A DNA stretch of 64,000 bases, from contig NZ_CP072643.1 of NCBI RefSeq assembly GCF_018304765.1, positions 1-64,000 on the forward strand, read 5' to 3'. This DNA comes from Chloracidobacterium sp. N (GTDB lineage: Bacteria > Acidobacteriota > Blastocatellia > Chloracidobacteriales > Chloracidobacteriaceae). Both the position numbers and the translations under genes were made by a program. A model generated the notes under the pieces. The model saw only the letters and a list, made by a program, of their open reading frames with translations. It was not told the origin of the DNA and searched no databases. Shown one piece after another: positions 1,912-64,000 of the stretch; position 1 is the first letter of the stretch, and the number at the start of each line of letters is the position of its first letter.

Positions 1912-1984
1912 GCGCCTGACCTGCCCGGTGCGCCGCGTTCCCATCCGGTTGATTGGGCGGGACGGCACAGCGAGAATAAACCCC

Positions 1985-4900
1985 ATGGCGTCTATGGCAT
2001 GGCTTGCATACAGCCGGTGGGTGCTCCTGATATGCAGTATCGCGTTCTGGTTCCTGCCGGCCGCGGCCGGGCCACGTCTGCGGGTGCAACGCTGGTCGGT
2101 CGAGCAGGGCATGTCCCAGGCCAGCGTGAATACCCTGCTCCAGGACCGTACGGGACTGATGTGGATTGGGACACACGACGGGCTGAACCGCTTTGATGGT
2201 TATACGTTCACGGCGTACCGCGCCGACCCCTTCAGCCCGGCGAGTCTCACCCACAGCAACATTACCGCGCTCGCCGAAGCCGCGGACGGCAACCTGTGGG
2301 TTGGGACGCTGCGTGGTCTCAACCGCCTCGACCCGCGCACCGGACAGGTTTACCCGCTGCCCCTGGATGGCGTGCGCGTGTTGGCGCTGTACGTTGACCC
2401 ACAGGGGTGGGTCTGGGCCGGAACAACCCGGGGACTGTACCAGATTGACCCGACGACCTGCGCCGTCAGCAGCGTTTGGACGGAACCGACCGATGGGGGC
2501 GCGCCGGCTGCGGTGCCGACTGCTGTGTATGCCCTGGCCCACGACGGCGCGGGCGGCCTCTGGCTGGGGTTGGAGCGTGGTGTGACCCGCTTTGACATGG
2601 CCACCCGGCAGGCGACGCCACCGGCCGACCACATCCTGTCCCGCCTGCCGGCCGAACGGGTGTGGTTCATTCGTCCGGTGGAGGGCGGTGTCCTCTGGCT
2701 CGGTCAGAATGCCGGTGTCACCTGTTTCAACCCGCTCACCGGGCAGGTTGAGCCGCTGGCCATCACCGATGCCCAAAGTGGCCAACCGGTCTCCGGCTGG
2801 TTGCGTACGGCGCGAAACTGCACAACGGATGCCCAGGGGCAGGTCTGGATTGGCACCGAAGACCAGGGGGTGGTGAGCCTGGAACCCAAGACCGGGCGCG
2901 CCTGGCGCTTCGTGCATCAGCCGGCAGACCCATCGGGCCTGAGTCATAACGCCATCCGGGCGCTGTGCCGCGATCAGGCGGGCGGCCTGTGGTTCGGAAC
3001 GCCTACGGGACTGGATCGCTATGATCCCCAGGCTCCGGTGTTCACGCCCTATCGCCACGAAGTCGGGAATCCGAACAGCCTGGGCTACGATGCGGTTTCG
3101 CACTGCTTTGAAGACCGCCAGGGCCGCCTCTGGGTTGGTATGGATGGCGGCGGTCTGGACTGCCTCGACGGCTCAACCTTTACCCATTTCACGACCCAAT
3201 CCGCCCCCGCTTACCGGCTGGAGGGCAATCGCATCTGGTGGATCACCGAAGACCACCGGGGAAACCTCTGGTTTGCCGGCGGCGCGGGCGGACTGGGGCG
3301 GCGTGATCCACGTGGAAACCTGCACTTTTACCGTCCCCGTCCGGGCTTTCCGCGCAGCTTCAGCAGTGAAGTCGTTTATGCGTTGCTGGTGGATCGGGAT
3401 GGCACGCTGTGGATTGGCACGGAACAGAGTGGACTGGCGCGCTATGAACCGGCCACGGATGACTTCACGCACTTTCGTCATGACCCGAACCGGCCGGGGA
3501 CGCTTCCCAGCAATACGGTGTCCCGCCTCGCTGAGGATGGGCAGGGGCAACTCTGGGTGGGGACGCCACAGGGCGTAGCCCGGCTTGACCGTCAGACGGG
3601 CAATGCCCAGGTGTTTGTCCCCGACCCGAACCGGCCAGGCAGCCTGGGGAACGGAAGTGTCGTCCGGTTGTTCCGGGACAGCGCCGGCGAGATTTGGGTG
3701 GGCACCCACTTTGGCATCTACCATTTCGAGCCGGGAACCCAGACCTTCCGCGCTTTTCGGTCCGGGGCGGGGCAGGGATTTGTCGGGCGCATCATCAACG
3801 ATGTGGTCGAATCGCCGCCGGGGGTGCTGTGGGTTGGAACCGAAGATGGTCTCAATCGAATCGAGTCGGCCACCGGCCGGGTGACGGCCATGACGATGCG
3901 TGACGGACTGCCGGCCAGCCGCATCGTCGAGCTTTACGCCGATACCACAGGGAAACTCTGGCTGGGGCTGAACATCGGCCTCTGTCAGTTCGATCCCGTC
4001 ACACACCGTTTCCGCCTGTTTGATGTCCGTGACGGACTGGTGGACAACCAGGCGCGACAGAGCTTCTTCCAGCGGCGCAACGGCGAGGTCCTGTTTGTTT
4101 CAACCAAGGGCTTCACGGCGTTTCGTCCCGAAGCCGTCCGCGCCAACCCTGTCCCTCCGCCGGTCGTCGTGACCGGTTTTCGCAAGTTTGACCGGTTGCA
4201 GCCCTTCGACGGCGAGAGTGTGCTTTCGCTCGACTATGACGAAAACCACTTCGCCTTCGAGTTTGCCGCGCTGAACTACACCGTCCCGGAAAGAAACCAG
4301 TATGCCTACCGGCTCGAAGGCTTCGACCGTGACTGGATTTACTGCGGGACGCGCCGCTATGCGAGCTACACGAATCTTGATCCGGGCGAGTATGTGTTCC
4401 GGGTCCGTGGCTCGAACGACAGCGGCCTGTGGAATGAAGACGGAAAGCGGGTGCGCGTCCGCATCCGCCCCGCTCCGTGGCGCACCTGGTGGGCCTACCT
4501 GGGCTATGGACTGCTGCTGGCCGGTGGGGTGTGGTTTGGGTTGCGCGTGCGTCTGGCGCGCGTCCGGGCCCAGGCGCGGCTGCGTGAAGCGCAGTTCCGG
4601 GCGCAGGCGGCGGAAAGCCAGGCCTCGGCCGCGGCGGCGCTGGCGACGGTGCGTGAGCGCGACGCTGAAATTTTCCGCCTCCGCAACATCGAACTGGCCG
4701 AAGCCAACCAGCTCGTGACGGACAGCCTGCTCTATGCCCAGCGGATTCAGTCGGCCATCCTGCCCGACCCCGGACTGCTCCGTTCCGCCTTTGAGGAAAC
4801 CTTCGTTCTCTACTGCCCGAAAGACATCGTGTCCGGCGATTTCTACTGGTTTCACCGCACGGATGACGCCTGGTTTCTGGCCGTCGGCGACTGCACGGGG

Positions 4901-5494
4901 CATGGCGTCCCCGGCGCATTGATGGCCATGGTCGGCACCACGCTGCTCAACCAGATGGTTGTCGAGCGGGGACTGGTTTCGCCGGCCGCCATCCTGGCGG
5001 AACTGGATGGCGCGGTGCGGCGACTTCTGCGCCAGGACCAGGATGCCAACCAGACGGGGGCCGCGGATGGGATGGACATCATCCTGTGCCGTTTCGACCG
5101 CACCCACGGCGGCCTGACCCTGGCGGGAGCGCGCCGGCCGCTCTATGTCGTCACGGCGGAGGGCGTGCTGACCGAGTACCGTGGCTCACGCCGGGCCATT
5201 GGCGGACGGCCGGGAAGGCACGGGCTGTCCTTTGAGGAAACACACCTGGTGGTTGAACGTCCGGTCAATGTCTATCTCACCACGGATGGCCTGGCCGACC
5301 AGCCTGATGCCGGGCATCGCAAGTTCGGCACCGCCCGCCTGCGCACCTGGTTACAGCAGGTTGCGGCGTTGCCGTTGGCGCTCCAGGGGGAACAGCTCAC
5401 CGCCGTCCTGACGGCGCACATGGGGGCGGAGCCGCAGCGGGACGACATCACGCTGGTGGGCGTAAGGTATCCGGGCGCAAGCCGGTCGTTCTGA
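1985..5494 (+). CDS. Beta-propeller sensor with Y_Y_Y domain and SpoIIE/PP2C phosphatase output
   Basis: Membrane receptor of the two-component-propeller type. A signal sequence (MASMAWLAYSRW, hydrophobic to AAAG) is followed by about 14 Reg_prop repeats recognisable by LWVGT/LWIGT and GLNR/GLxRxD signatures, then a Y_Y_Y domain (around YAYRLEGFDRDW), one transmembrane helix (WWAYLGYGLLLAGG), a coiled coil rich in A/E/R, and a SpoIIE-type PP2C phosphatase. The phosphatase has SGDFYWF, the metal-site GDCTGHGVPGA and the terminal RDDITLVG. The propeller probably senses a periplasmic ligand and the phosphatase probably acts on an anti-sigma-antagonist-like partner (family knowledge). I chose the ATG at 1985 because it starts the signal peptide; an in-frame GTG at 1928 would add 19 residues that spoil it. 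Confidence 0.9.
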   Translation: MASMAWLAYSRWVLLICSIAFWFLPAAAGPRLRVQRWSVEQGMSQASVNTLLQDRTGLMWIGTHDGLNRFDGYTFTAYRADPFSPASLTHSNITALAEAADGNLWVGTLRGLNRLDPRTGQVYPLPLDGVRVLALYVDPQGWVWAGTTRGLYQIDPTTCAVSSVWTEPTDGGAPAAVPTAVYALAHDGAGGLWLGLERGVTRFDMATRQATPPADHILSRLPAERVWFIRPVEGGVLWLGQNAGVTCFNPLTGQVEPLAITDAQSGQPVSGWLRTARNCTTDAQGQVWIGTEDQGVVSLEPKTGRAWRFVHQPADPSGLSHNAIRALCRDQAGGLWFGTPTGLDRYDPQAPVFTPYRHEVGNPNSLGYDAVSHCFEDRQGRLWVGMDGGGLDCLDGSTFTHFTTQSAPAYRLEGNRIWWITEDHRGNLWFAGGAGGLGRRDPRGNLHFYRPRPGFPRSFSSEVVYALLVDRDGTLWIGTEQSGLARYEPATDDFTHFRHDPNRPGTLPSNTVSRLAEDGQGQLWVGTPQGVARLDRQTGNAQVFVPDPNRPGSLGNGSVVRLFRDSAGEIWVGTHFGIYHFEPGTQTFRAFRSGAGQGFVGRIINDVVESPPGVLWVGTEDGLNRIESATGRVTAMTMRDGLPASRIVELYADTTGKLWLGLNIGLCQFDPVTHRFRLFDVRDGLVDNQARQSFFQRRNGEVLFVSTKGFTAFRPEAVRANPVPPPVVVTGFRKFDRLQPFDGESVLSLDYDENHFAFEFAALNYTVPERNQYAYRLEGFDRDWIYCGTRRYASYTNLDPGEYVFRVRGSNDSGLWNEDGKRVRVRIRPAPWRTWWAYLGYGLLLAGGVWFGLRVRLARVRAQARLREAQFRAQAAESQASAAAALATVRERDAEIFRLRNIELAEANQLVTDSLLYAQRIQSAILPDPGLLRSAFEETFVLYCPKDIVSGDFYWFHRTDDAWFLAVGDCTGHGVPGALMAMVGTTLLNQMVVERGLVSPAAILAELDGAVRRLLRQDQDANQTGAADGMDIILCRFDRTHGGLTLAGARRPLYVVTAEGVLTEYRGSRRAIGGRPGRHGLSFEETHLVVERPVNVYLTTDGLADQPDAGHRKFGTARLRTWLQQVAALPLALQGEQLTAVLTAHMGAEPQRDDITLVGVRYPGASRSF

Positions 5495-5513: not shown

Positions 5514-8500
5514 CTACACCGTCAGGGCATTGCCCCGGTGAATCCGTGACAGGTAGCGGCTCTGCTCCGGCTCCGGGGCCGGAGATGCCGCCAGCAGGAC
5601 GGCATCCACGAAACGCGCCAGTTCCTCGCGCTCCTCCCGCTCATTGCGGGGTTCTTCGACCCGTGCCCGGCGTGTCAGGTCCACCTGGTTGACCGTCGGA
5701 TGATGGGTGAACCGCTCACATTCCACGGCCAGCGTCGCCGTCAGCGCGTGAAGCGTCGTCTTGACAAACAACGCCAGGGCAAACTCTTCGCGGGATGAGT
5801 TGCGCGAAGTTTTGGGCGTGACGAGCACAATCTGCGCCTTGTCCTGCAATGCCGCCTTTTTCGCCACCCGGAAGTGGTGCGTGATGTGGGTTTCGACAAG
5901 CTGCTCGAAGTCCTTTTCGTTGAGCACGCCGCGCCAGTCGTCCGTCGCGGCCAGCGGTTTGAGCGGCAGCGGGTCAAAAGGCGTGGACACCACGACATCC
6001 AGATGCCCGAACCGCCGGATGAGGTCATCCATGGCCGCTTCGACGTTGGCCCCACCGCTGAAGACGTGCAGGTTGTTGAGCCGCTGGGCAGAGAAGTAGT
6101 GCCGCAGCGAATCCGCCCGCTCCGCCGTCCTGGTCAGAAGAATGCAGTTGCGGACGACGAGCTGAATGGCAAAGGCCCCGACCAGCCACCGGAGTTCCTC
6201 TTCCAGGTAGTCACCGATGAGCAGGATGTTCTTGCGGCGCAGCTCCATGAGGTCTTCGTTGCGCGGCAGGCCGTAGAACTCCCCTTCCGTCACCGTCCGG
6301 TCAAACTTCAACCCGCCCGACGGATGCAGGGTTTCGCCGCTGACGTTGGGATCGGAAAGGTAAAAGACCGTCGCAATGGCAATTTCCTCCTCGGTGGGCA
6401 TGCGCCCCAGATTGAGCATGGTCAGCACGCTGGACTGCACGCGCACGGCTTCCTTTTCGACTTCGACCGGATCGAAAAACGGCTCAGGCGGTTCGGGCAA
6501 CTCACCCAGAAACCCCAGCGTGAAGGCTTCCCGGTCTTCGACCGAAGCCAGATAGCCCCCCTCAAACAGCCGGTGGAGCAGTTTTTCTGCAATCTTGCGC
6601 GTCATGAGATAGTGGCTGTCGGAGTGGCCTTCATTGACGGCGCCGGCGCGCAGATGGGCAATGAGTCGCCGCACGGGTTCGGGCGGGTTGGCTGCCAGTA
6701 CCTCGTCAAAGTGGTTGTGCGCCAGCGCTCCCAAGGTCGCCTTGACCGTTTCACCTTCACGCCAGGCGCGGATGACGGCATCGTGGATGTCGTTCAGACG
6801 CTTGTTTTCGAGAATGAGCCGCGCCCGGCGGGCGTACAACCCCGGCCGCGAACCCTCCCCGCGCAGCCGCTTGCCTTCGACCGGACCCGGCGAGAGGGCA
6901 TTGATCTGGATTTCAGGCCCCAGATGCCGCGCCAGAATCTCGGCCAGCGCCCGTTGCCCGGCTTTGGAAACGGCATAATCGCTGCGGTTGGGATAGGCCA
7001 CCGCCACGTATTTCTCGCCGCCAAAGTACGAGCTGACGTTGAGAATGTAGCCCGCGCCCTGTTTTTTCATCAGTGGCGCGATTTTGTAGATGAGCGAATA
7101 GTTGCTGAGCAGGTTTGCCTTGAGGGTGTGCCGCCAGGCCGCCAGCGGCAGGTCCACGACCATTTCCTCCGCCCCGGCAATGCCGGCGTTGTTGATGAGA
7201 AAGTCAATGCGTCCGAACTTGTCCATGGCGAATTTGACCAGCCGCCCCAGGGCTTCTTCATCCGCCACGTCAATGTCGGGCAGGATTTCGACCCGTGTTT
7301 CCGGCTGCGGATAGCCAATGGCAAACAGTTCGGCGACGATCTCGCGTTTGAGCGCCGCCAGCCGTTCGGCGTCCCGCGCCGCCAGGACGACCTTGGCCCC
7401 GGAAAGCGCCAGGTAGTGGCCAATTGCGCCGCCGATGCCGGCGCTGCCCCCGGTGATGACCGCCACCTTGCCGATGTGCAGGCCGAGCAGCGTCCGGGCA
7501 ATGTCGCGGGGCAGTTCGGCCTTGCCGGTGGTGCGCTGGATGTTTTCGGGAACGTAGAGGTTCAGTTCGTCGAAGAGACGGACGCGGTTGGCCAGCGTCG
7601 CCAGCCAGTCGGCCGTGAATTTGAGGTTGTCCGGCTCGGCGTTGGCATAGCGGACAATCTGGTTGGTCCGCACGGCAAAGCGGCGCGTTCCGGCCGCCAC
7701 CTGAAGTTCGTCTTCGTGCCGCCACACCCGCAGCAGTTGTTCCACGGCCGCGCGGTAGATGTCTTCAAAGGCATTGGTGGCACCGTCGTGTTCGTTGGTG
7801 AGGAACAGGACGTTGACCGGTTCCTGGAGTTCGTTTTCGGCGTCGAAAGCGAGCAGGAAGCGCGAAAGTTGCGCCGCAAAAGCCGTCGTTCCGAGAATGG
7901 CTTCGTCGGTGAACTGCCGGATGCGTTCCGGCTCGTCCGGGATGAGTTCCGGGCCGTAGTAGCCTGCCGCATGCGCCGGAAAGACAATGACTGTATCCAG
8001 CCGGTGGTAGCGTTCCCGGATGAGGTCAAAGACGCTGGTCACCGACTCCCGCCGCAGGGGATCGAGCCAGGTGACGGCGATGCTGTGGTTGAGGCCATGG
8101 CTTTCGAGCTGGGCCTTGGCCGTATTGACGGCTTCCGGCTGCCGGAACGTCAAAATGACCGATGCCCCATAGGACTGCTGGCTGGCGGCAATGGTCACGG
8201 CGTCGTGAACCTGCTCGCCGCCCACGATGAGCACGACGCGCCGGCTGAGGTCAATGAGCCGCTGGTCAGGCCACGCCGTGAGCTTGGTGCGGCTCTGGGC
8301 CTTGACCTGCATGCCGTGGGTAATCTCGAAGTTGTGCCCGGAAATGGCGGCCGATTCGTCCGACCCGAGAAAAAGCATGACGTGTGCCACGTCGGCCTGG
8401 GTCGGATAGCATTTGGTCGGCGCTTCACCCCCGCGTGCCCGCGCCAAAATCATGATGTCGAAAAATTCCTGCGCCGTCGTTCCTTCAGGAACGCCCTTGA

Positions 8501-9179
8501 GGCGGTCCATCGCCCCGAACACAGTGCGGATGCGGTCGGAATCAATCGGCCCCGGAAAGACGGTATTGACGCGCACGGCGCGGTCGGTCGTCCCAAGCTG
8601 TTTGGCCAGCCCCAGCGACAGCGCATTCAGGGCCGACTTGGGCACGACGTAGGGAATCCGCCCGTAGTAGTTCGTCCGGGAAAAAATCGTGGAGACATTG
8701 ATGATGCTGGCCCCGACGCGCAGGTAGGGCAGCGCCAGGCGCGTCAGATGCCACGGCAGTCCCAGCAGGTTGGCCGCCGATTCGCGCATCGTTTCCGTTT
8801 CGGTGAAGCCTTCGGCCGCCAGTTGGTCCAGGTCTTCCAGAGTGAAGGGAATCCGAAACAGGGGCTGTTTGGCCCCGGCCGAGCCGGCATTGTTGATGAG
8901 CACATCCAGCCCGCCCCAGCGCGCTGCAATGGCTTCGAGCGCCGCCTGCATGCCTGCCAGGTCCGTGGGCGCAAAGGCAACCGGCAGGATGTCGTCGCCG
9001 GAGAAACCTTCGGCCATGAGCGCCGCCCGGAACTGCTCAGCCCGTTCGAGCGACCGGCTGGAAATGGCGACGCGCGCGCCTTCCCGCAGATACATCCGCG
9101 TCACGACGCCGCCGATTCCGCCGGCCGCGCCGGTAATGAGAGCCACTTTTCCGTTCAAACGCATGGTTTCACCCGCCAC
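5514..9179 (-). CDS. mcr: Bifunctional malonyl-CoA reductase (NADPH)
   Basis: A 1221-aa multi-SDR protein that matches the Chloroflexus-type malonyl-CoA reductase in length, domain order and recalled sequence. The N-terminal half has an SDR with TGAAGGIG (16-23), NVS near 163 and YVVPK (177-181), then a degenerate SDR starting near 315. The second half starts with VAVITGGSAGIGG (572-584) and has NVSSYFGG and YAVSK (735-739), then another degenerate SDR and the terminal RIHRG. In Chloroflexus the C-terminal half reduces malonyl-CoA to malonate semialdehyde and the N-terminal half reduces that to 3-hydroxypropionate. Both catalytic Tyr-Lys pairs are intact here. GTG at 9179 is preferred because MAGET aligns with the MSGTG start of the Chloroflexus enzyme; ATG at 9164 is the alternative. 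Neighbours do not include the rest of the bicycle. Confidence 0.9.
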   Translation of the reverse strand: MAGETMRLNGKVALITGAAGGIGGVVTRMYLREGARVAISSRSLERAEQFRAALMAEGFSGDDILPVAFAPTDLAGMQAALEAIAARWGGLDVLINNAGSAGAKQPLFRIPFTLEDLDQLAAEGFTETETMRESAANLLGLPWHLTRLALPYLRVGASIINVSTIFSRTNYYGRIPYVVPKSALNALSLGLAKQLGTTDRAVRVNTVFPGPIDSDRIRTVFGAMDRLKGVPEGTTAQEFFDIMILARARGGEAPTKCYPTQADVAHVMLFLGSDESAAISGHNFEITHGMQVKAQSRTKLTAWPDQRLIDLSRRVVLIVGGEQVHDAVTIAASQQSYGASVILTFRQPEAVNTAKAQLESHGLNHSIAVTWLDPLRRESVTSVFDLIRERYHRLDTVIVFPAHAAGYYGPELIPDEPERIRQFTDEAILGTTAFAAQLSRFLLAFDAENELQEPVNVLFLTNEHDGATNAFEDIYRAAVEQLLRVWRHEDELQVAAGTRRFAVRTNQIVRYANAEPDNLKFTADWLATLANRVRLFDELNLYVPENIQRTTGKAELPRDIARTLLGLHIGKVAVITGGSAGIGGAIGHYLALSGAKVVLAARDAERLAALKREIVAELFAIGYPQPETRVEILPDIDVADEEALGRLVKFAMDKFGRIDFLINNAGIAGAEEMVVDLPLAAWRHTLKANLLSNYSLIYKIAPLMKKQGAGYILNVSSYFGGEKYVAVAYPNRSDYAVSKAGQRALAEILARHLGPEIQINALSPGPVEGKRLRGEGSRPGLYARRARLILENKRLNDIHDAVIRAWREGETVKATLGALAHNHFDEVLAANPPEPVRRLIAHLRAGAVNEGHSDSHYLMTRKIAEKLLHRLFEGGYLASVEDREAFTLGFLGELPEPPEPFFDPVEVEKEAVRVQSSVLTMLNLGRMPTEEEIAIATVFYLSDPNVSGETLHPSGGLKFDRTVTEGEFYGLPRNEDLMELRRKNILLIGDYLEEELRWLVGAFAIQLVVRNCILLTRTAERADSLRHYFSAQRLNNLHVFSGGANVEAAMDDLIRRFGHLDVVVSTPFDPLPLKPLAATDDWRGVLNEKDFEQLVETHITHHFRVAKKAALQDKAQIVLVTPKTSRNSSREEFALALFVKTTLHALTATLAVECERFTHHPTVNQVDLTRRARVEEPRNEREEREELARFVDAVLLAASPAPEPEQSRYLSRIHRGNALTV

Positions 9180-9224
9180 GGCGAAGGCGCTCCGGCGCTA
9201 TCCGGCGCACCTGCCGCTGCCACC

Positions 9225-9728
9225 TCAGTTCTCGTTGTTGAGGAGTTGGTTTTTGCTGCGCGAGATTTCAGCCATCTTGGCCTTGAAGTCCACCAGTTCG
9301 CGCTGGAGCTCCGGGTTGTCCGCCGCAACAATCTGGACGGCGAGGATGCCGGCATTCTTGGCCGCGCCAATGGCCACCGTCGCCACCGGTACGCCGACCG
9401 GCATCTGGACAATCGAGAGCAGCGAATCCAGCCCGTTGAGCGCCTTCGACTGAATGGGGACGCCGATGACCGGAAGGGGCGTCAGGGACGCCACCATGCC
9501 CGGCAGGTGGGCGGCTCCACCTGCCCCGGCGATGATGACCCGCAACCCACGCATGTGCGCCGTCTCGGCGTACATGAACATGTCGCGCGGCGTCCGGTGG
9601 GCAGACACAATCCGCATCTCGTGCGCGACCCCGAACTCACTGCAGATAGCCGCTGCATCCTTCATCACCGGGTAGTCGCTGTCACTGCCCATGATGATGC
9701 CTACGGCCGGAAGCTCATGTCTGGCCAT
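9225..9728 (-). CDS. purE: N5-carboxyaminoimidazole ribonucleotide mutase PurE
   Basis: A 167-aa PurE of the usual bacterial class I length. Visible family motifs are [13 protein letters not shown] near the N-terminus, SAHRTP with the catalytic His, and [13 protein letters not shown] followed by PVIGVP. The enzyme moves the carboxyl group of N5-CAIR to C4 in cytosolic purine synthesis; PurK is not in this window. The start codon overlaps the 3' end of the upstream acyl-CoA dehydrogenase gene by 14 bp, so the two are translated from one message. The malonyl-CoA reductase gene follows 45 bp downstream on the same strand and may be co-transcribed. Confidence 0.97.
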
Positions 9729-10959
9729 GTTTTCCTCCGCTTGCGCGTTCCTCGGTTCTGGAACGGTATTTCGTCAACTCCAGCTTGGCGATGGTTTCCC
9801 GGTGCACTTCGTCGGGGCCGTCGGCCAGACGCAGGGTGCGCGCCTGCGCCCAGGCGTAGGCCAGCCCGAAGTCGGCGCAGACCCCGCCGCCGCCGTGCGC
9901 CTGAATGGCGCGGTCAATGACCCGCAGCGCCATGTTGGGGGCGACGACCTTGATCATCGCAATTTCGGTGCGGGCGACTTTGTTGCCGTAGCGGTCCATC
10001 ATGGCCGCCGCCTGCAGGGTCAGCAACCGGGCCTGATCAATCTCGATGCGCGAGTCGGCAATGGCCGCCCGGAGCACGCCCTGTTCGGCCAGCGACCGGC
10101 CGAAGGCCGTCCGGGTCAGCACCCGCCGGCACATGGCTTCCAGGGACCGCTCGGCCAGACCGATGAGCCGCATGCAGTGGTGAATGCGGCCGGGGCCGAG
10201 CCGCCCCTGGGCAATCTCGAAGCCCCGCCCTTCCCCCAGCAGCAGGTTGGATGTTGGAACCCGGACGTTTTCAAACCTGACCTCGGCGTGGCCGTGGGGA
10301 GCATCGTCATAACCGAAGACATCCAGCATGCGGACGACCCGGACGCCCGGCGTGTCCATCGGAATGAGCAGCATGGACTGCTGCTGGTGCTTGGGCGCTT
10401 CCGGGTTGGTCTTGCCCATGAAGATGATGAGCTTGCAGCGCGGATCGCCCGCCCCGCTCGTCCACCACTTCCGGCCGTTGACGAGGTAGGTGTCACCGTC
10501 GCGCTCGATGCGGGCCGTGATGTTGGTGGCGTCCGAACTGGCCACATCCGGTTCGGTCATGGCAAAGCACGACCGGATTTCGCCGGCCAGAAGCGGTTCG
10601 AGCCACTGTTTTTTCTGCTCCGGCGTGCCGTACCGCACGAGCACTTCCATGTTGCCGGTGTCCGGGGCCGAGCAGTTGAACACCTCCGGCGCCAGAAACG
10701 ACCGCCCCATGATTTCGCACAGCGGGGCGTAGTCGAGATTGCTCAGCCCGGCGCCGTATTCGCTTTCCGGCAGGAACAGGTTCCACAGCCCGGCCGCCCT
10801 GGCTTTGGCCTTGAGTGTTTCGATGATGCGCGTCGGCTGCCAGCGGGGGCCGGCGGCAAGTTCGTCCCGGAACGTGGCCTCGTTGGGGTAGATGTGCTCA
10901 TCCATAAAGGCCAGGAGTCGTTCGCGGAGTTCACGGGCTTTGGGTGAAAACTCAAACAT
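9715..10959 (-). CDS. Acyl-CoA dehydrogenase family protein
   Basis: Flavin-dependent acyl-CoA dehydrogenase of about 414 aa. It carries the FAD/acyl-binding signatures [16 protein letters not shown] and [13 protein letters not shown], plus the C-terminal [24 protein letters not shown] segment that lies near the FAD site in this fold. The [15 protein letters not shown] start resembles the ACAD10/11-like subgroup, which acts on longer or hydroxylated acyl chains, but substrate cannot be read from sequence. ATG at 10959 is chosen: it has a GAGG 9 bp upstream. It is sandwiched between a MaoC hydratase gene (23 bp upstream) and purE (overlapping), so a fatty-acyl degradation or remodelling step is likely. 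Confidence 0.92.
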
Positions 10960-10982
10960 AACCGGAACCTCAACCAGGATGC

Positions 10983-11438
10983 CTAAACCAGAACACGCAG
11001 AATCCACTCGGCGACACAGGCCGGCTTGTCCGCGCCGTCCAGTTCCACGGTGCAGTTGAGCGTGAGGTCAAGGCCGTTGTCGAGTGATTTGACCTGGGCC
11101 ATGGCGAAGCGTCCCCGGACGCGGCTGCCCGCCGGAACCGGCGTGACGAACCGCACCCGGTTGAGACCATAGTTGAGCGCCAGCCGCGCCCCCTCGAAGT
11201 GCAGGGTCTGCTCCACCAGATGCGGAATCAGCGACAGTGTCAGGAAGCCGTGCGCAATGGTGGTTTTGAACGGGGATTCGACGGCCGCCCGTTCGGGATC
11301 GCAGTGAATCCACTGGGTATCGCCGGTGATTTCACCAAAGCTGGTGATGCGCGCCTGGTCAATGGTGAACCAGTCGCTGACGGCCAGTTCCTGACCGGCC
11401 AGGGCGGAAAGCGATGCAAGCGAAAAAGTCGTGGGCAT
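10983..11438 (-). CDS. MaoC-like (R)-specific enoyl-CoA hydratase
   Basis: A 151-aa single hot-dog protein. The hydratase-2 motif is present as [19 protein letters not shown], with the catalytic Asp and His, followed by the [11 protein letters not shown] helix. The family hydrates trans-2-enoyl-CoA to (R)-3-hydroxyacyl-CoA. It is the first gene of the minus-strand set hydratase - acyl-CoA dehydrogenase - purE - malonyl-CoA reductase; the first two make consecutive beta-oxidation-type steps. ATG at 11438 is preferred over an upstream TTG at 11486; neither has a clear ribosome-binding site. About 145 bp upstream of it hold no gene. Confidence 0.9.
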
Positions 11439-11583
11439 GGGACGTAAAAACCGCAGGAAGGAACGTGGGATGTTTCTTCCATGCAACCACTATTTTGTGC
11501 GTTTGCCAACCGATTCAGCAGGGGCTGACACCCGGGCCGCTGCCCCTGGGAGGTGGGGACGGGCCGGCGGGTGGGAAGCCGTC

Positions 11584-35985: not shown

Positions 35986-36066
35986 GGGAAAACAGACAGC
36001 CCGGCGGTTGCCTGGCGGCACAGCCGGCCGTTTGGCCAGCCCGGTCAGGCGAATGGGAAAGGTCTG
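35986..36066 (-). pseudogene. selD 5'-end remnant, unit 1
   Basis: Read on the minus strand, the segment encodes FPIRLTGLAKRPAVPPGNRRAVCF, aligning to the SelD N-terminus TIRLTKLAKRAGCAAKQPPG. The start codon position has mutated (the CAT seen in other units is lost). It lies between the RRM terminator and the promoter of secreted paralogue 1. Confidence 0.7.
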
Positions 36067-36104
36067 ACGGATTTTCAAAAAGACAGGAAAAACCTGAAGC
36101 CTTG

Positions 36105-36133
36105 TTGACCCTGCCAAAGGTGGTGATTAGATT
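36105..36133 (+). promoter_or_regulatory. Sigma-70-like promoter of secreted paralogue 1
   Basis: TTGACC (36105-36110), 17-bp spacer, TAGATT (36128-36133). The same position in units 2, 3 and 4 keeps a TTGAnN box and the conserved spacer core CTGCCAAAGGTGG, which supports a real promoter. Confidence 0.65.
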
Positions 36134-36185
36134 GAAACAGGTTTTCTCCAAAGCACAACGTCAACCGGCGGGTGCACCTGGTTTC

Positions 36186-36264
36186 GGGAGTCACGGCGCC
36201 GGTTATGAAGGGTGCCTCCCTGCTGACGGAAAGGCCATCACGCTTTCAGAAGGAGGTAAATCCG
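36186..36264 (+). promoter_or_regulatory. Conserved 5' leader of secreted paralogue 1
   Basis: The leader starts GGGAGTCACGGCGCC and ends with AGGAGGT 8 bp before the ATG. It recurs before paralogues 2, 3 and 4. Its first part, GGGAGTCAC to TGCCTCCC, is also found at the start of the ECF sigma gene (45089-45130). It can be translated in frame as GVTAPVMKGASLLTE, matching GVTAPVMDDASLPTE of the sigma reading frame. Confidence 0.6.
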
Positions 36265-37764
36265 ATGTTGAAGGCGACTGGAAAACACCGCTGTGTCGCC
36301 GGGGTTGTGGCCCTTGTGGTTGTTGTGCTGATGCTGGGGGTGCCGCCCGGCTTCAGCACCAACGTGCAGGTGGAGCGTCCGTCTGACCGGAAGGCGTCCG
36401 GCTTCGTCCATGAGCCGCAGCTTTACCGCACGCTGTTTCACACCATTTTTCTGCTGAATGAACAGGCGGAGGAAGCGGAACGGGCTGGACGGACGGATGT
36501 GGCGCAGGCGTTGCGGCGCGCGTTCAAACAGGAAGCGGACCTGGAGGCGGAGCAGGGGGTGGTCCTCGACCGGTTGGCGGCGGAGTGTGAGCAGGCGGTG
36601 CGGGCGGTGGATGCACGGGCGCGGGTAATCCTTGCGGCGCGGCGGGCGAACTATCCTGACGGGAAGCTGCGGGCGGGACAGCAGCCGCTGCCGCCATCGG
36701 CGGAACTGTTGGCGTTGCAGCGGGAGCGGGAGGCGGTGGTGCTGCGTTACCGTGACCGGTTGCGGGCAACCTTTGGGCCGCGGGCGTGGGAGGAGTTTGA
36801 GCAGCGGGTTCTGCTGCCTTTTGCCGCCGGGCTGAGCGCAGGCGGTACTCAGAGGCACCAGCCGGTTGAGGACGTTTCTGGAACGGGCAACCTGACGACA
36901 CAGGCGGGAGAGTCTATTGTCACCGGCTCGGTGCTCATCAGCTACGACCCTGAGACGAACCTTGTGACGGGGGTGGCCACGACTGAACTCGATTACGCAG
37001 CGCAGGACTGGTATATGGGGCGGGTGACGTGCAGCCTTCGCGACGGGAACGGAAACCCGCTGGCGAGCCAGAGTGCCGAGGACACCGACGGGGATGGGAC
37101 GGTGTCGGTCATCGTGCAGATGATGGGGCAGGAGGGGCTGACGACCTACGGGGCGCGCGGGGAGTACAGCCTACGGCTGGATATTTATGATCCTTTCTGT
37201 GGGTGCTGTGGTTGTTACCTTGACCCCTGTAACTTTCAGCGGGCGCTGCTGGGCGGTTGGGGCTGGGGGCCTTGGTACTGCACGGTATTTTCGGGGCACG
37301 GTCCGTTTCGCACGATGCGGTCGGGTACGCTGTTTCTGGGAGGAAGGGATGTCACCTTTCAGGTAAAACCGCTGGTCGCTGTCAGGCAGCTAAGGTTTAC
37401 CAAAAATCCCATCAGGGCCACCTTTGACTCCACCGATCTTGATGTGACTGTTAGGGCCTCACGGGCAGGGCTTCAGGATAGGGATTTTGCGGTCTTGGAA
37501 GTCAATCTCATCACTGGACCAAGCAACCCACAAGTCAGTTTTGCCTACCCACCGGGAGTAACGGACGACGTTGAATTGGTGCCAGGAGGTTATACCGACG
37601 CGAGGTTCACTATTCTCTCAATCGCACCACCTGGGAATTATTTGCTTGAGGTAAGAATCATAGATGTCAGGCGACCCGATGGGCAGGGTGGTTCGGACAG
37701 CATCGCGGATAGGGTTATTATCGGTAGCCCAGTGGAGATCACCTTGACCGTAACGGAACCGTGA
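36265..37764 (+). CDS. Secreted array protein, copy 1
   Basis: A 499-aa exported protein of unknown family. It starts MLKATGKHRCVAGVVALVVVVL, a signal peptide ending near FSTN. Next is a helical, Arg/Glu/Ala-rich region (about 45-185, EPQLYRTLFHTIFLLNEQAEEAE...). Then comes a beta-rich region from SYDPETNLVTGVATTELDY with a metal-like DTDGDGTVSV stretch, the Cys cluster CGCCGCY (312-318), and a C-terminal Ig-like part ending DVRRPDGQGGSDSIADRV. The strong AGGAGG site decides the start. The stop is unusual: TGA arises where the gene abuts an RRM-tail duplicate, so the 3' end has been rebuilt by a deletion compared with copy 3. Confidence 0.85.
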   Translation: MLKATGKHRCVAGVVALVVVVLMLGVPPGFSTNVQVERPSDRKASGFVHEPQLYRTLFHTIFLLNEQAEEAERAGRTDVAQALRRAFKQEADLEAEQGVVLDRLAAECEQAVRAVDARARVILAARRANYPDGKLRAGQQPLPPSAELLALQREREAVVLRYRDRLRATFGPRAWEEFEQRVLLPFAAGLSAGGTQRHQPVEDVSGTGNLTTQAGESIVTGSVLISYDPETNLVTGVATTELDYAAQDWYMGRVTCSLRDGNGNPLASQSAEDTDGDGTVSVIVQMMGQEGLTTYGARGEYSLRLDIYDPFCGCCGCYLDPCNFQRALLGGWGWGPWYCTVFSGHGPFRTMRSGTLFLGGRDVTFQVKPLVAVRQLRFTKNPIRATFDSTDLDVTVRASRAGLQDRDFAVLEVNLITGPSNPQVSFAYPPGVTDDVELVPGGYTDARFTILSIAPPGNYLLEVRIIDVRRPDGQGGSDSIADRVIIGSPVEITLTVTEP

Positions 37765-37813
37765 AGAGCAGAGTAGCGGCTATGGTGGCGGCAACCGTCG
37801 TGGCGGCTGGTAA
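37760..37813 (+). repeat. Duplicated RRM 3' tail, unit 2
   Basis: Eighteen codons, in frame, reading REEQSSGYGGGNRRGGW and TAA, a shortened copy of the RRM protein's C-terminus. It overlaps the stop codon of secreted copy 1. Confidence 0.85.
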
Positions 37814-37856
37814 GCATCGCACCGGGCGCTGAATACGCCCAAAGCCAAAAATCTGT

Positions 37857-37886
37857 GGGACGCGCCCTCGCGGGTGCGTCCCTTTT
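37857..37886 (+). terminator. Duplicated terminator, unit 2
   Basis: GGGACGCGCCC-TCGC-GGGTGCGTCCC followed by TTTT, the copy of the RRM terminator, here acting downstream of secreted copy 1. Confidence 0.8.
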
Positions 37887-37954
37887 CGTTTGGGCAACGT
37901 GCCGTTGCCCGTACTCCGGGCCCGGGGCTGGCAGGTCGCATGCCGTTCCGGCCG

Positions 37955-38007
37955 GGAAGACAGGCAGCCCGTTTGGCCAGCCCGGTCAGGCGAATGGGGA
38001 AGGTCAT
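37955..38007 (-). pseudogene. selD 5'-end remnant, unit 2
   Basis: An ATG at 38007 on the minus strand is retained and reads MTFPIRLTGLAKRAACLPG before diverging; true SelD begins MTSTIRLTKLAKRAGCAAK. About 37 bp present in units 1 and 3 are missing here. Confidence 0.7.
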
Positions 38008-38046
38008 GACGGATTGGCAAAAAGACAGGAAAAACCTGAAGCCTTG

Positions 38047-38075
38047 TTGACATTGCCAAAGGTGTTATTAATTCT
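38047..38075 (+). promoter_or_regulatory. Sigma-70-like promoter of secreted paralogue 2
   Basis: TTGACA (38047-38052), 16-17 bp spacer, TAATTC (38069-38074) or AATTCT. This is the best -35 match of the four units. The leader with GGGAGTCACGGC and AGGAGG follows to 38206. Confidence 0.65.
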
Positions 38076-38206
38076 GAAACAGCTTCTCCCGGAAGTGCAA
38101 TGTTGGCGGGCAGGTATGCCTGGTTTCGGGAGTCACGGCGCAGGTTGTGAAGGGTGCCTCCCTGCTGACGGAAAGGCCATCACGCTTTCAGAAGGAGGTA
38201 AATCCG

Positions 38207-39700
38207 ATGTTGAAGGCGACTGGAAAACACCGCTGTGTCGCCGGGGTTGTGGCCCTTGTGGTTGTTGTGCTGATGCTGGGGGTGCCGCCCGGCTTCAGCA
38301 CCAACGTGCAGGTGGAGCGTCCGTCTGACCGGAAGGCGTCCGGCTTCGTCCATGAGCCGCAGCTTTACCGCACGCTGTTTCACACCATTTTTCTGCTGAA
38401 TGAACAGGCGGAGGAAGCGGAACGGGCTGGACGGACGGATGTGGCGCAGGCGTTGCGGCGCGCGTTCAAACAGGAAGCGGGCCTGGAGGCGGAGCAGGGG
38501 GTGGTCCTCGACCGGTTGGCGGCGGAGTGTGAGCAGGCGGTGCGGGCGGTGGATGCACGGGCGAGGGCAATCCTTGCGGCGCGGCGGGCGAACTATCCTG
38601 ACGGGAAGCTGCGGGCGGGACAGCAGCCGCTGCCGCCGTCAGCGGAACTGTTCGCATTGCAGCGGGAGCGGGAGGCGGTGGTGCTGCGTTACCGTGACCA
38701 GTTGCAGGAAGCCTTTGGGCGGAGTGTGTGGGAGCGGTTTGAGCGGTGGGTACTGATGCCTCTTGACGCCGGGCTGAGAGCTGGCGGTGCTCAAAGGTAC
38801 GAGCCAGTTGAGGACGGTTCTGTTGAGTACAGTTCTGAAACGGGTAACCTGCCGACGCAGGCGGGGGAGTCCATTGTCACCGGCTCGGTGCTCATCAGCT
38901 ACGACCCTGAGACGAACCTTGTGACGGGCGTGGCCACGACTGAACTCGATTACGCAGCGCAGGATTGGTATGTGGGGCAGGTGGCGTGCAGCCTCCGCGA
39001 CGGGGACGGAAACCCGCTGGTGAGCCAGAGTGCCTATGACACCGACGAGGATGGGGTAGTGTCGGTCATCGTGCAGACGGTGGGGCAGGCCGGGATGGCA
39101 TACTCGGCAGAGGGCAGCTACAAGTTGAGGCTGGTTGTTCAGGACACAATTGGTCGTTATCTTGACTACTGGGACTATCCGGCTGGGGTTTCGGCCGGCA
39201 CTGGAATCCTTGGGTACTATGCCTGGTATCGTGGGCGTGGTCCACTCCAATGGAGACCGACGTGGAACAGGTTTCTAGGGAGACTGACAGCCCCCCTTCA
39301 AAGGGCTTTGGTTCTTTCCGGAAATCCGAGGTTTACGGCGAATCCCATTACTGCAGCCACTGGTCACACCCATGTTGACGTGGACGTTGAAGTCAGGACA
39401 GCAGCAGATGTGATTCAGCCTGGGGATTTTGCGGTACTGGCCATCAGCGTATCGTCAAAACCGCCGGGGGCCTCTGTGAACTTTATTTCGGGGACAAATG
39501 TCAACGTTCCACTGAAGATAGCAGACCTGAGTACCGGAAGATTCACGCTTTCCGTGAGCAAACCCGGGCAGTACCGATTCAGGGTGTCAGTTGTTGATGT
39601 CAGGCGACCCGACGGACGGGGTGGCTCGTACAGCATCATCGACAGTGTCAGGATCAATGAAGGAGGAGTCGTGAGTGACCCGCCGTTGACGGCAAACTAG
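38207..39700 (+). CDS. Secreted array protein, copy 2 (divergent C-terminal half)
   Basis: A 497-aa paralogue. The first 170 or so residues are nearly identical to copy 1 (signal peptide and helical region). After the SYDPETNLVTG segment it diverges: the CGCCGCY cluster is absent and is replaced by a DYWDYPAGVSAGTG stretch. The C-terminal Ig-like domain is only distantly related but keeps VVDVRRPDGRGGSYSI. The pattern suggests recombination or fast divergence of the C-terminal half while the N-terminal half is homogenised. AGGAGG lies 8 bp upstream of the ATG. Confidence 0.85.
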   Translation: MLKATGKHRCVAGVVALVVVVLMLGVPPGFSTNVQVERPSDRKASGFVHEPQLYRTLFHTIFLLNEQAEEAERAGRTDVAQALRRAFKQEAGLEAEQGVVLDRLAAECEQAVRAVDARARAILAARRANYPDGKLRAGQQPLPPSAELFALQREREAVVLRYRDQLQEAFGRSVWERFERWVLMPLDAGLRAGGAQRYEPVEDGSVEYSSETGNLPTQAGESIVTGSVLISYDPETNLVTGVATTELDYAAQDWYVGQVACSLRDGDGNPLVSQSAYDTDEDGVVSVIVQTVGQAGMAYSAEGSYKLRLVVQDTIGRYLDYWDYPAGVSAGTGILGYYAWYRGRGPLQWRPTWNRFLGRLTAPLQRALVLSGNPRFTANPITAATGHTHVDVDVEVRTAADVIQPGDFAVLAISVSSKPPGASVNFISGTNVNVPLKIADLSTGRFTLSVSKPGQYRFRVSVVDVRRPDGRGGSYSIIDSVRINEGGVVSDPPLTAN

Positions 39701-39737
39701 CCTCACCCAGACTTTGCCCCATCTGAAGCCCACCCCG

Positions 39738-39848
39738 CGTGAAGAGCAGAGCAGCAGCTATGGTGGCGGCAACCGTCGTGGTGGTGGTTACGGCGGTGGC
39801 GGCCGGCGCGGTGGCGGCGGTGGCGGTTACGGTCGTGGCGGCTGGTAA
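39738..39848 (+). repeat. Duplicated RRM 3' tail, unit 3
   Basis: Thirty-seven codons in frame with TAA, starting REEQSSSYGGGNRRGGG and ending GGYGRGGW, almost the full glycine-rich tail of the RRM protein, without the RRM domain or a start codon. Confidence 0.9.
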
Positions 39849-39891
39849 GCATTGCACCGGGCGCTGAGTACGCCCAAAGCCAAAAATCTAC

Positions 39892-39921
39892 GGGACGTGC
39901 CCTTGCGGGTGCGTCCCTTTT
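39892..39921 (+). terminator. Duplicated terminator, unit 3
   Basis: GGGACGTGCCC-TTGC-GGGTGCGTCCC and TTTT, identical in stem sequence to the RRM terminator at 35877. Confidence 0.82.
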
Positions 39922-39962
39922 CATTTGGTGCTTCGTTTGGGCAACGTGCCGTCGCCCGTACT

Positions 39963-40082
39963 TTAGGCCCGGGGCTGGCGGGTCGCAGGCTGTCCCGGCC
40001 AGGAAAACAGATAGCCCGGCAGTTGCCTGGCAGCGCAACCGGCCCGCTTGGCCAGCTTGGTCAGGCGAATGGGAAAGGTCAT
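39963..40082 (-). pseudogene. selD 5'-end remnant with open frame, unit 3
   Basis: An ATG at 40082 opens a 39-codon frame beginning MTFPIRLTKLAKRAGCAAR, nearly identical to the intact SelD N-terminus including the active-site GCAA(R/K), and continuing QLPGYLFSWPGQPATRQPRA to a TAA. The remaining roughly 310 codons of selD are missing. It is divergent to secreted copy 3. Confidence 0.82.
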
Positions 40083-40121
40083 GACGGATTTTCAAAAAGA
40101 CAGAAAAAACCTGAAGTCTTG

Positions 40122-40150
40122 TTGACGCTGCCAAAGGTGGTGGTTAGGTT
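40122..40150 (+). promoter_or_regulatory. Sigma-70-like promoter of secreted paralogue 3
   Basis: TTGACG (40122-40127), 17-bp spacer, TAGGTT (40145-40150), at the same place as in units 1, 2 and 4. The conserved leader follows to 40280. Confidence 0.6.
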
Positions 40151-40280
40151 GAAACAGGTTTTCTCCAAAGCACAACGTCAGCCGGCGGGTGTACTGGTTT
40201 CGGGAGTCACGGCACCGGTTGTGAAGGGTGCCTCCCCGCTGACGGAAAGGCCATCACGCTTTCAGAAGGAGGTCAATCCG

Positions 40281-41768
40281 ATGTTGAAGGTGACCGGAAA
40301 ACACCGCTGTGTCGCCGGGTTTGTGGCCCTTGTGGTTGTTGTGCTGATGCTTGTGGTGCCGCCCGGCTTCATCGCCAGGGCGCAGGTGGAGCGTCGGTCT
40401 GACCGGAAGGCGTCCGGCTTCGTCCATGAGCCGCAGCTTTACCGCACGCTGTTTCACACGGTTTTTCTGCTCAACGAGCAGGCGGAGGAAGCGGAACGGG
40501 CTGGGCGGACGGAGGCGGCGCAGGCGTTGCGGCGCGCGTTCAAACAGGAAGCGGACCTGGAGGCGGAGCAGGGGGTGGTCCTTGACCGGTTGGCGGCGGA
40601 GTGTGAGCAGGCGGTGCGGGCGGTGGATGCACGGGCGAGGGCAATCCTTGCGGCGCGGCGGGCGAACTATCCTGACGGGAAGCTGCGGGCGGGACAGCAG
40701 CCGCTGCCGCCATCGGCGGAACTGTTCGCATTGCAGCGGGAGCGGGAGGCGGTGGTGCTGCGCTACCGTGACCGGTTGCGGGCAGCCTTTGGGCCGCGGG
40801 CGTGGGAGGAGTTTGAGCAGCGGGTTCTGCTGCCTTTTGCCGCCGGGCTGAGCGCAGGCGGTACTCAGAGGCACCAGCCGGTTGAGGACGGTTCTGGAAC
40901 GGGCAACCTGACGACACAGGCGGGAGAGTCTATTGTCACTGGCTCGGTGCTCATCAGCTACGACCCTGAGACGAACCTTGTGACGGGGGTGGCCACGACT
41001 GAACTCGATTACGCAGCGCAGGACTGGTATATGGGGCGGGTGACGTGCAGCCTTCGCGACGGGAACGGAAACCCGCTGGCGAGCCAGAGTGCCGAGGACA
41101 CCGACGGGGATGGGACGGTGTCGGTCATCGTGCAGATGATGGGGCAGGAGGGGCTGACGACCTACGGGGCGCGCGGGGAGTACAGCCTACGGCTGGATAT
41201 TTATGATCCTTTCTGTGGGTGCTGTGGTTGTTACCTTGACCCCTGGAACTTTCAGCGGGCGCTGCTGGGCGGTTGGGGCTGGGGGCCTTGGTACTGCACG
41301 GTATTTTCGGGGCACGGTCCGTTTCGCACGATGCGGTCAGGTACGCTGTTTCTGGGAGCAAGGGATGTCACCTTCCAGGTAAAACCGCTGGTCGCTATCA
41401 GGAGGCTGAGGTTTACCAAAAATCCCATCAAGGTCAACATTGACTCCACCGATCTTGATGTGACTGTTAGGGCCTCACTGGCAGGGCTTCAGTCTGAGGA
41501 TTTTGCGGTCTTGGAAGTCAATATCTTGGATCGACCAAGCGAAGGACACCTCACTTTTGGCGACCGAATAATCGGCGTTCGATTGGTGCCGGGAGACATT
41601 ACCACGAAGATGTTCAACATTGTCTCAAGCAATAGGGCCGGGAACTATGTGCTTGAGGTAAGAATCATAGATGTCAGGCGACCCGACGGGCAGGGTGGTT
41701 CGGACAGCATCATGGATAGGGTTATTATCGGTAGCCCAGTGGAGATCACCTTGACCGTAACGGATTAG
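40281..41768 (+). CDS. Secreted array protein, copy 3
   Basis: A 495-aa paralogue starting MLKVTGKHRCVAGFV. It is almost identical to copy 1 through the helical region, the DTDGDGTVSV stretch and the CGCCGCY cluster, and diverges only in the last 110 residues (for example GHLTFGDRIIGVRLVPGDI). It ends DVRRPDGQGGSDSIMDRV...TLTVTD and TAG, which appears to be the ancestral end, shared with copy 4. The strong ribosome-binding site AAGGAGG decides the start; a frame running in from 39852 crosses terminator and leader and is not coding. Confidence 0.85.
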   Translation: MLKVTGKHRCVAGFVALVVVVLMLVVPPGFIARAQVERRSDRKASGFVHEPQLYRTLFHTVFLLNEQAEEAERAGRTEAAQALRRAFKQEADLEAEQGVVLDRLAAECEQAVRAVDARARAILAARRANYPDGKLRAGQQPLPPSAELFALQREREAVVLRYRDRLRAAFGPRAWEEFEQRVLLPFAAGLSAGGTQRHQPVEDGSGTGNLTTQAGESIVTGSVLISYDPETNLVTGVATTELDYAAQDWYMGRVTCSLRDGNGNPLASQSAEDTDGDGTVSVIVQMMGQEGLTTYGARGEYSLRLDIYDPFCGCCGCYLDPWNFQRALLGGWGWGPWYCTVFSGHGPFRTMRSGTLFLGARDVTFQVKPLVAIRRLRFTKNPIKVNIDSTDLDVTVRASLAGLQSEDFAVLEVNILDRPSEGHLTFGDRIIGVRLVPGDITTKMFNIVSSNRAGNYVLEVRIIDVRRPDGQGGSDSIMDRVIIGSPVEITLTVTD

Positions 41769-41803
41769 CTTCACCCGGCGTTGCCTGGCCTGAAGCCTGC
41801 CCG

Positions 41804-41845
41804 TGTGAAGAGCAGAGTAGCGGCTATGGCCGCGGCGGCTGGTAG
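41804..41845 (+). repeat. Duplicated RRM 3' tail, unit 4 (eroded)
   Basis: In-frame EEQSSGYGRGGW and TAG, a much shortened copy of the RRM glycine-rich end. Confidence 0.8.
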
Positions 41846-41888
41846 TCACCGCACCGGACGCTGAGTACGCCCAAAGCCAAAAATCTGT

Positions 41889-41919
41889 GGGACGCGCCCT
41901 TTGCCGGTGCGTCCCTTTT
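41889..41919 (+). terminator. Duplicated terminator, unit 4
   Basis: GGGACGCGCCC and GGTGCGTCCC stem followed by TTTTC. It lies between secreted copy 3 and the convergent selD 3' end, so it may serve both strands. Confidence 0.75.
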
Positions 41920-41985
41920 CGTTTGGTGCTTCATTGGTGCAACGTGCCGTCGCCCCGACCCTGAGCCAGGGCTTGATGCCGCGCA

Positions 41986-43035: not shown

Positions 43036-43236
43036 AACGGATTGGCAAAAAGACTGGAAAAACCGGAAGTCCTGTTGATGCTGCCAAAGGTGGTGATTAA
43101 CCTGAAGCAGATTCTTCCCAAAGTGCAACATCAGCCGACGGCGATAGCAGGTTCTTGGGAGTCACGACACCGGTTGGGAAGTGCGTGTCCCCGGTGACGA
43201 AAAGGCAATCACACTTTCTGCAGGGAGGTAAACCTG
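43036..43236. promoter_or_regulatory. Divergent promoter region selD / secreted paralogue 4
   Basis: On the plus strand TTGATG (43075-43080), 17-bp spacer and TAACCT (43098-43103) match the promoter position of units 1 to 3. The leader GGGAGTCACGACACC and GGGAGG follow before the ATG at 43237. The minus-strand selD start is 40 bp from the -35 box, so its promoter must overlap this region. Confidence 0.55.
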
Positions 43237-60801: not shown

Positions 60802-60811
60802 GACCGGACTG

Positions 60812-63547: not shown

Positions 63548-63681
63548 CGGCCTGATATTCCGCCTTTTTGCAAAGCTTGGGCGCGTATGCGGGCTTTTGG
63601 AAAAGCCGTCGGCAGGCCCGTTGTGCCGGGTAGGGGGTGCAGGCCAGTAGTCATCAACAACTCCTGCCGGCGGCTGTCGCG

Positions 63682-63984: not shown

Positions 63985-64000
63985 GTCTTGGCTGGCAGTG

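Follow-up and report, generated by a model that had tools for sequence, protein, structure and literature searches.

What does a malonyl-CoA reductase (MCR) do in a light-using, hot-spring bacterium whose MCR gene has no propionyl-CoA synthase (PCS) gene beside it? The question is raised by the first 64,000 bp of contig 2 of Chloracidobacterium sp. N (bases 1-64000, hereafter the window), a strain that came from Mushroom Spring according to the available part of its genome paper (PMC8245765). Its genome (G000) has two contigs that total 3,715,176 bp. The initial annotation of the window placed MCR outside its usual pathway context, which holds locally but not for the genome as a whole, where a PCS split into two genes lies on the same replicon as MCR and methylmalonyl-CoA mutase on the other. 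The new element is this PCS in two genes, whose cut falls within a catalytic domain; it is conserved in the genus and has a parallel in a second phylum. Taken together, the genes suggest partial incorporation of CO2 and not full autotrophy, and we give a probability of about 0.7 to the reading that MCR and a two-subunit PCS make up half of the 3-hydroxypropionate (3-HP) pathway as an open route that runs one way, in which acetyl-CoA and two HCO3- would yield succinyl-CoA.

Malonyl-CoA reductase and a propionyl-CoA synthase in two genes

The open reading frame (ORF) of MCR aligned end to end with solved bifunctional enzymes (8hi4, query 6-1221, 1130 bits; 8hjw, 5-1221, 1107 bits; both E = 0), which we take to be malonyl-CoA reductases, as we do 8a30 and 6k8s/6k8v (PDB name: SDR). 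An NADP motif is present in each half (TGAAGGIGG at 16, TGGSAGIGG at 576) and so is a Tyr-x3-Lys site (Y177/K181 and Y735/K739), bearing out, for this protein of 1221 residues, the initial view of a full-length bifunctional enzyme that keeps both SDR active sites. The coordinates first given for the gene stood as well, but the strand had to be corrected to minus, since a plus-strand reading is interrupted by stops and is ruled out. In a quick, midpoint-rooted tree of 39 MCR rows, made without an SDR outgroup and after removal of identical rows, of three window-overlapping loci and of any row whose match was 600 residues or shorter, the protein fell among the MCRs rather than outside them; it grouped with its own genus, next to a group of Halieaceae, Alteromonadaceae and Myxococcales (SH-aLRT 97). 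Pairwise dN/dS of MCR was within 0.03-0.08 across seven genomes, and a copy with 90% identity was found in an uncultured Chloracidobacterium metagenome-assembled genome (MAG). At a threshold of E <= 1e-100, MCR was detected in eight of 58 genomes searched: all seven of the genus including its own, one of three other members of the family (G008, from another genus, where a contig end cuts the gene off) and none of 48 further relatives. In its length, its two SDR halves, its motifs and its end-to-end match it is like the bifunctional MCR of Chloroflexota and aerobic phototrophic Proteobacteria, whereas its position is different, not beside PCS and instead conserved beside purE and an acyl-CoA dehydrogenase gene. 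The MCR of Chloracidobacterium is an ordinary family member in an unexpected lineage.

A search for PCS elsewhere in the genome, which the initial annotation had proposed, found it as two genes, here called PCS-N and PCS-C (Table 1). Of the AMP-binding open frames in G000 none reaches the length of an intact PCS; the longest, at 1076, is that of PCS-N. PCS-N matched 6eqo (1850 aa, acetyl-CoA synthetase by its PDB title), which we take to be a PCS, over query residues 16-1037 with 1304 bits. It breaks off within the hydratase domain, its ECH_1 match ending at profile position 144 of 251. The missing half was searched for with an intact PCS of 1817 aa from a gammaproteobacterial contig (L040), where it lies directly upstream of its own MCR, and PCS-C matched the C half of that protein over residues 3-789 with 59% identity. 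The two genes are about 422 kb apart. As placed by alignment and Pfam positions, both ends lie in one loop: PCS-N finishes with GGTQRLPRLLALRRG-x-stop, and PCS-C begins with a short non-homologous leader followed by LLDAIEIIVGGR. Thus the synthetase (ACS), hydratase and reductase (ECR) domains of the PCS type are all encoded, as in 6eqo, but across two genes, with the cut inside the hydratase domain, whereas the intact rows compared are single open frames. A definition of PCS as three domains on one polypeptide does not describe Chloracidobacterium, whose enzyme reads, from its sequence, as a two-gene variant and not as a typical member.

A PCS-N that ends at this point, give or take a few residues, was present in all seven genomes of the genus (as a fragment in G002) and as a fragment in G008; PCS-C was present in six of the seven and partially in G008. 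Sequencing error was rejected as the cause of the split, since the same cut occurs in eight family genomes, three of them two-contig assemblies. A split intein was rejected too: only about 1-7 varying residues follow the conserved end of PCS-N in the eight family genomes, and the leader of PCS-C is short and variable. The DNA past the PCS-N stop differs among species, and a putative trpF ORF starts nine bases past that stop. Upstream of PCS-C in G000 there is a divergent AA_kinase/PUA gene, and a TnpB-type (OrfB_IS605) gene (L143 1532-2557, plus strand) lies about 3.8 kb upstream of PCS-C.

Both halves of PCS are under purifying selection. Pairwise dN/dS was 0.03-0.08 for PCS-N (six genomes) and PCS-C (five genomes), and pooled pN/pS within the genus, from five genomes each, was 0.120 for ACS, 0.074 for the N part of the hydratase, 0.166 for its C part and 0.111 for ECR, compared with 0.425 for the short leader of PCS-C. 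Of the residues that do not vary among 14 intact PCS, a set picked for its spread out of the sequences fetched, 387 of 391 were retained (ACS 186/187, hydratase N part 45/45, hydratase C part 16/17, reductase 140/142). The N part of the hydratase, with 93.0% identity, is the most constrained region measured; in intact PCS, too, conservation is lowest in the C part, where mean identity was 40.7% across 91 pairs and 39.8% between Chloracidobacterium and intact forms. The glutamates of GGGxE and QPE, which are presumably catalytic in the hydratase, were retained in the aligned hydratase rows. Because the split hydratase stays this constrained, we infer that its two pieces meet, so that PCS-N and PCS-C would assemble into one enzyme with the hydratase domain completed in trans.

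The two halves might instead act apart, PCS-N as a 3-hydroxypropionyl-CoA synthetase bearing a dead hydratase stump and PCS-C as a free acrylyl-CoA reductase, with an ordinary enoyl-CoA hydratase working between them. Their separate, distant genes fit such a division of labor, as do other enoyl-CoA-hydratase-like ORFs in the genus (G006), but a dead stump would be expected to drift like the leader of PCS-C, whereas the stump of PCS-N is more constrained than any other region and keeps every invariant residue together with both glutamates, and the helical remainder of the domain in PCS-C has lost only one of its invariant residues. We therefore regard separate action of the halves as unlikely.

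The same cut in the Chlorobi class

We searched 98 genomes of the class to which the Chlorobiales MAG ES-bin-17 (G060) belongs at E <= 1e-90 and found PCS in seven of them. Three look intact (G153, G154 and G059, the last on two contigs and unbroken across the cut site), and three (G060, G157 and G160) are cut at the same loop as in Chloracidobacterium, with other DNA between the halves; the seventh (G162) covers residues 1341-1812 only, at a contig end, and is uninformative on the cut. The intervening DNA holds an antisense Cytochrome_P460-like gene in G060 and G157 (L161 8515-9081 minus; L160 9785-10321 minus) and a BsaWI-like restriction endonuclease with a DNA methylase in G160 (L158 5141-7098 plus), whose PCS has apparent frameshifts in both halves.

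In trees of the N half, of the C half and of both joined, the split forms of Chloracidobacterium and Chlorobi stood apart. A single fission shared by the two was rejected by approximately unbiased (AU) tests under LG+G4, in which the group was named after the split had been seen and several rows were of unlike letter make-up (p = 2e-8 for N, 9e-51 for C and 6e-191 for the joined data). All these trees omit G160, with its frameshifts, and the contig-end fragment of G162; the N tree further omits L032, L121 and the G002 fragment, the C tree the partial C half of G008, and the joined tree G002, G006, G008, L027 and L031, for which a half was missing or none was used. Because the trees reject one clade for the two split forms, two or more fissions probably occurred at this one site, short of a scenario with refusions, the case being strong but not final. 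Within Chlorobi the splits could represent one event, two events, or one with refusion, because the joined tree does not resolve the order of G060, G157 and G059.

The closed compartment of intact PCS probably confines acrylyl-CoA, a toxic intermediate. A multi-step enzyme of this kind that is naturally split within one of its catalytic domains, and conserved in that state, poses the question of whether two chains can build a closed chamber. The wider proposal is that this compartment-forming megaenzyme underwent natural fission on at least two occasions, in Chloracidobacterium and in the Chlorobi class, in the same hydratase loop, and works as two subunits, which in Chloracidobacterium would serve an overlooked CO2-incorporating half of the 3-HP pathway; to this whole chain of claims we give even odds. 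No split PCS was found among the matches listed in a search of open-licence PMC text, with database annotations outside its scope, and neither MCR nor PCS was found in two papers on Chlorobi, in the available part of one (PMC9342728) and by word search in the other (PMC9560492). Pathway searches that require an intact PCS may overlook split cases.

A proposed open route to succinyl-CoA and its rivals

The reaction chemistry of the proposed steps is that of the known 3-hydroxypropionate pathway. Acetyl-CoA would be carboxylated to malonyl-CoA, which MCR, as the first committed enzyme, would convert with two NADPH to 3-hydroxypropionate; the two-subunit PCS would carry this through 3-HP-CoA and acrylyl-CoA to propionyl-CoA, which would be carboxylated and then converted to succinyl-CoA by way of B12-dependent methylmalonyl-CoA mutase. 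The succinyl-CoA would replenish the tricarboxylic acid (TCA) cycle and the precursors derived from it, and the route would consume reductant in a photoheterotroph.

Gene neighborhood bears on this route. A scan of a contig collection for MCR returned at least 80 loci, and 33 among those listed were taken as true MCR, that of Chloracidobacterium (L019) included. Among these listed matches PCS adjoins MCR in 23 of the 33, upstream within 3-181 bases in 22 and downstream in one, and because of this adjacency we consider the functions of the two enzymes linked. Six of the ten loci with no adjoining PCS start 1.4 kb or less from a contig end, and the remaining four are L019, L051 and two Chlorobi loci, L024 and L025. 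A reversed order, with MCR before PCS, was seen in a gammaproteobacterial MAG (L049 6178-14984), where the MCR is divergent (34% identity). As for the remainder of the pathway, the genome encodes two methylmalonyl-CoA mutase catalytic chains and gave four hits to biotin-dependent carboxyltransferases, two of them full length. These two larger ones scored 644 and 386 bits against a methylcrotonyl-CoA carboxylase chain, and 630 and 403 bits against 9tps, named propionyl-CoA carboxylase. Phototrophy was examined through type I reaction-centre-like genes in 18 genomes. G000 has such a gene (PF00223, 30.1 bits, cut-off 23.3), and within the family the four genomes with it (G000, G001, G005 and G008) all have MCR and PCS, while the two that lack it (G007 and G009) have neither.

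Several observations weigh against the route. The mutase ORFs do not carry the portion that binds B12; no search was aimed at a separate B12 subunit or at the epimerase. Against chains of canonical PccB both larger carboxyltransferases scored far lower, at best 286 and 253 bits, and neither appears to be a canonical PccB. PCS-C was not found in one of the seven genus genomes, G006, a draft of 90 contigs. MCR, PCS-N and PCS-C are scattered far apart in the genome, and trees give the MCR and the PCS of Chloracidobacterium different neighbors. Beyond the family the link to the reaction centre is loose, since G160, G062 and G066 have PCS but no reaction-centre hit, and G155 and G067 have a hit but no PCS. 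Finally, gene conservation is no proof of the direction of flux, and both this direction and the physiological role of the MCR/PCS route are what we infer from the genes.

The direction could be reversed or the route partial, with 3-HP or propionyl-CoA from amino-acid breakdown oxidized via MCR to malonyl-CoA, or with 3-HP taken up and assimilated. C. thermophilum lives on amino acids, according to the available part of the paper on its growth (PMC4376005), and beta-oxidation-like genes, the acyl-CoA dehydrogenase and the MaoC hydratase, flank MCR. However, that PCS has kept its three activities is more in keeping with synthesis than with oxidation, and the frequent adjacency of MCR and PCS weighs against such a use as well. 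PCS spends ATP and NADPH toward propionyl-CoA. We consider a reverse or partial route quite improbable.

A complete autotrophic 3-hydroxypropionate bicycle is a far weaker candidate. MCR, all the PCS domains and the mutase genes are present, and the enzymes from malonyl-CoA to propionyl-CoA and the mutase are shared with the bicycle of Chloroflexus. In contrast, two markers of the glyoxylate-forming steps and of the second cycle were not found in Chloracidobacterium: mesaconyl-CoA C1-C4 transferase (TIGR04253) had no match in G000, G001, G005 and G008, whereas a Chloroflexales genome (G058) scored 805 bits, above the cut-off, and for the malyl-CoA lyase family (PF03328) G000 and G001 each had a single match, below the cut-off at 20.4 bits, compared with 91.5 bits in G058. 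The available parts of the published physiology report no photoautotrophic growth of Chloracidobacterium (PMC4376005, PMC12816986). Because the two markers were not found, the route seems not to close into autotrophy, and the evidence supports a path from acetyl-CoA to succinyl-CoA, not the full bicycle. The initial annotation had allowed for autotrophy if other genes, malyl-CoA lyase among them, lay elsewhere, which is not upheld; its suggestion of partial 3-HP chemistry in a mixotroph is supported at the level of sequence. Least probable of all is a state of decay in which MCR and the PCS halves persist as relics, for although the PCS gene is split, its parts are scattered and carbon-fixation genes are published as absent (PMC12816986, available part), the frames are free of stops in the genomes compared, dN/dS is low and motifs and invariant residues are kept.

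An open half of the 3-HP pathway in Chloracidobacterium would be at odds with the literature in one respect and helpful in another. The 2026 paper describing C. validum says, in its available part, that nine strains have no carbon-fixation genes (PMC12816986), a statement with which MCR and a split PCS are difficult to reconcile. Tank and Bryant (2015) reported, in the part of their paper available, that C. thermophilum requires bicarbonate and B12 (PMC4376005), and the half-pathway offers a testable cause for this response. Neither "malonyl" nor "hydroxypropionate" turned up in the main text of PMC4376005, and no word beginning with "malonyl" or "propion" was found in the available part of the 2021 genome paper (PMC8245765). 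Only members of Chloroflexi are named as holders of the three key enzymes in the available portion of section 16 of PMC5459899, the supplementary MCR table lying outside this scope. The closest parallel is a proposal that 3-HP enzymes serve co-assimilation in Actinobacteriota MAGs, which have key enzymes and an incomplete cycle (PMC9802188, available part). Chloracidobacterium likewise has key enzymes and not the full cycle; within the parts of that paper available, no word beginning with "acidobacteri" occurs in the main text and no split PCS is mentioned in section 7.

Surroundings of the MCR gene

The neighbors that the initial annotation named for MCR (PurE, an acyl-CoA dehydrogenase and a MaoC hydratase) were confirmed, all on the strand of MCR (Table 1). 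The order acyl-CoA dehydrogenase-purE-MCR was kept at all eight other loci compared, from six genomes of the genus and G008, two of the eight records being the same MAG contig; the genes are more widely spaced in G008.

Table 1. Positions of MCR, its neighbors and the two PCS genes on contig 2 of G000.
Feature	Position	Strand	Remarks
MCR, bifunctional, two SDR halves	5514..9179	minus	1221 aa, GTG start
purE (5-(carboxyamino)imidazole ribonucleotide mutase)	9225..9728	minus	immediately upstream of MCR, order conserved
Acyl-CoA dehydrogenase	9715..11007	minus	closest solved relatives 4hr3 and the ACAD11-type chains 8v3u and 2wbi; order conserved
MaoC-type hydratase	10983..11486	minus	167 aa
PCS-N	590,995-594,120	minus	1041 aa, synthetase domain and first part of hydratase domain
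PCS-C	1,016,337-1,018,793	plus	818 aa from chosen ATG, rest of hydratase and reductase

On the plus strand, an open frame of 1348 aa (5874-9920) runs antisense through MCR and purE and is a probable shadow ORF of a gene rich in G+C. Convergent with MCR, a plus-strand gene (1928-5494) encodes a protein of 1188 aa with two-component-regulator propeller repeats, a Y_Y_Y domain and a SpoIIE-type phosphatase. Elsewhere in the window, GC skew was raised in 36001-44000 (0.13-0.17) and similarly, at 0.14, in 60001-64000, and was lower in most of the remainder.

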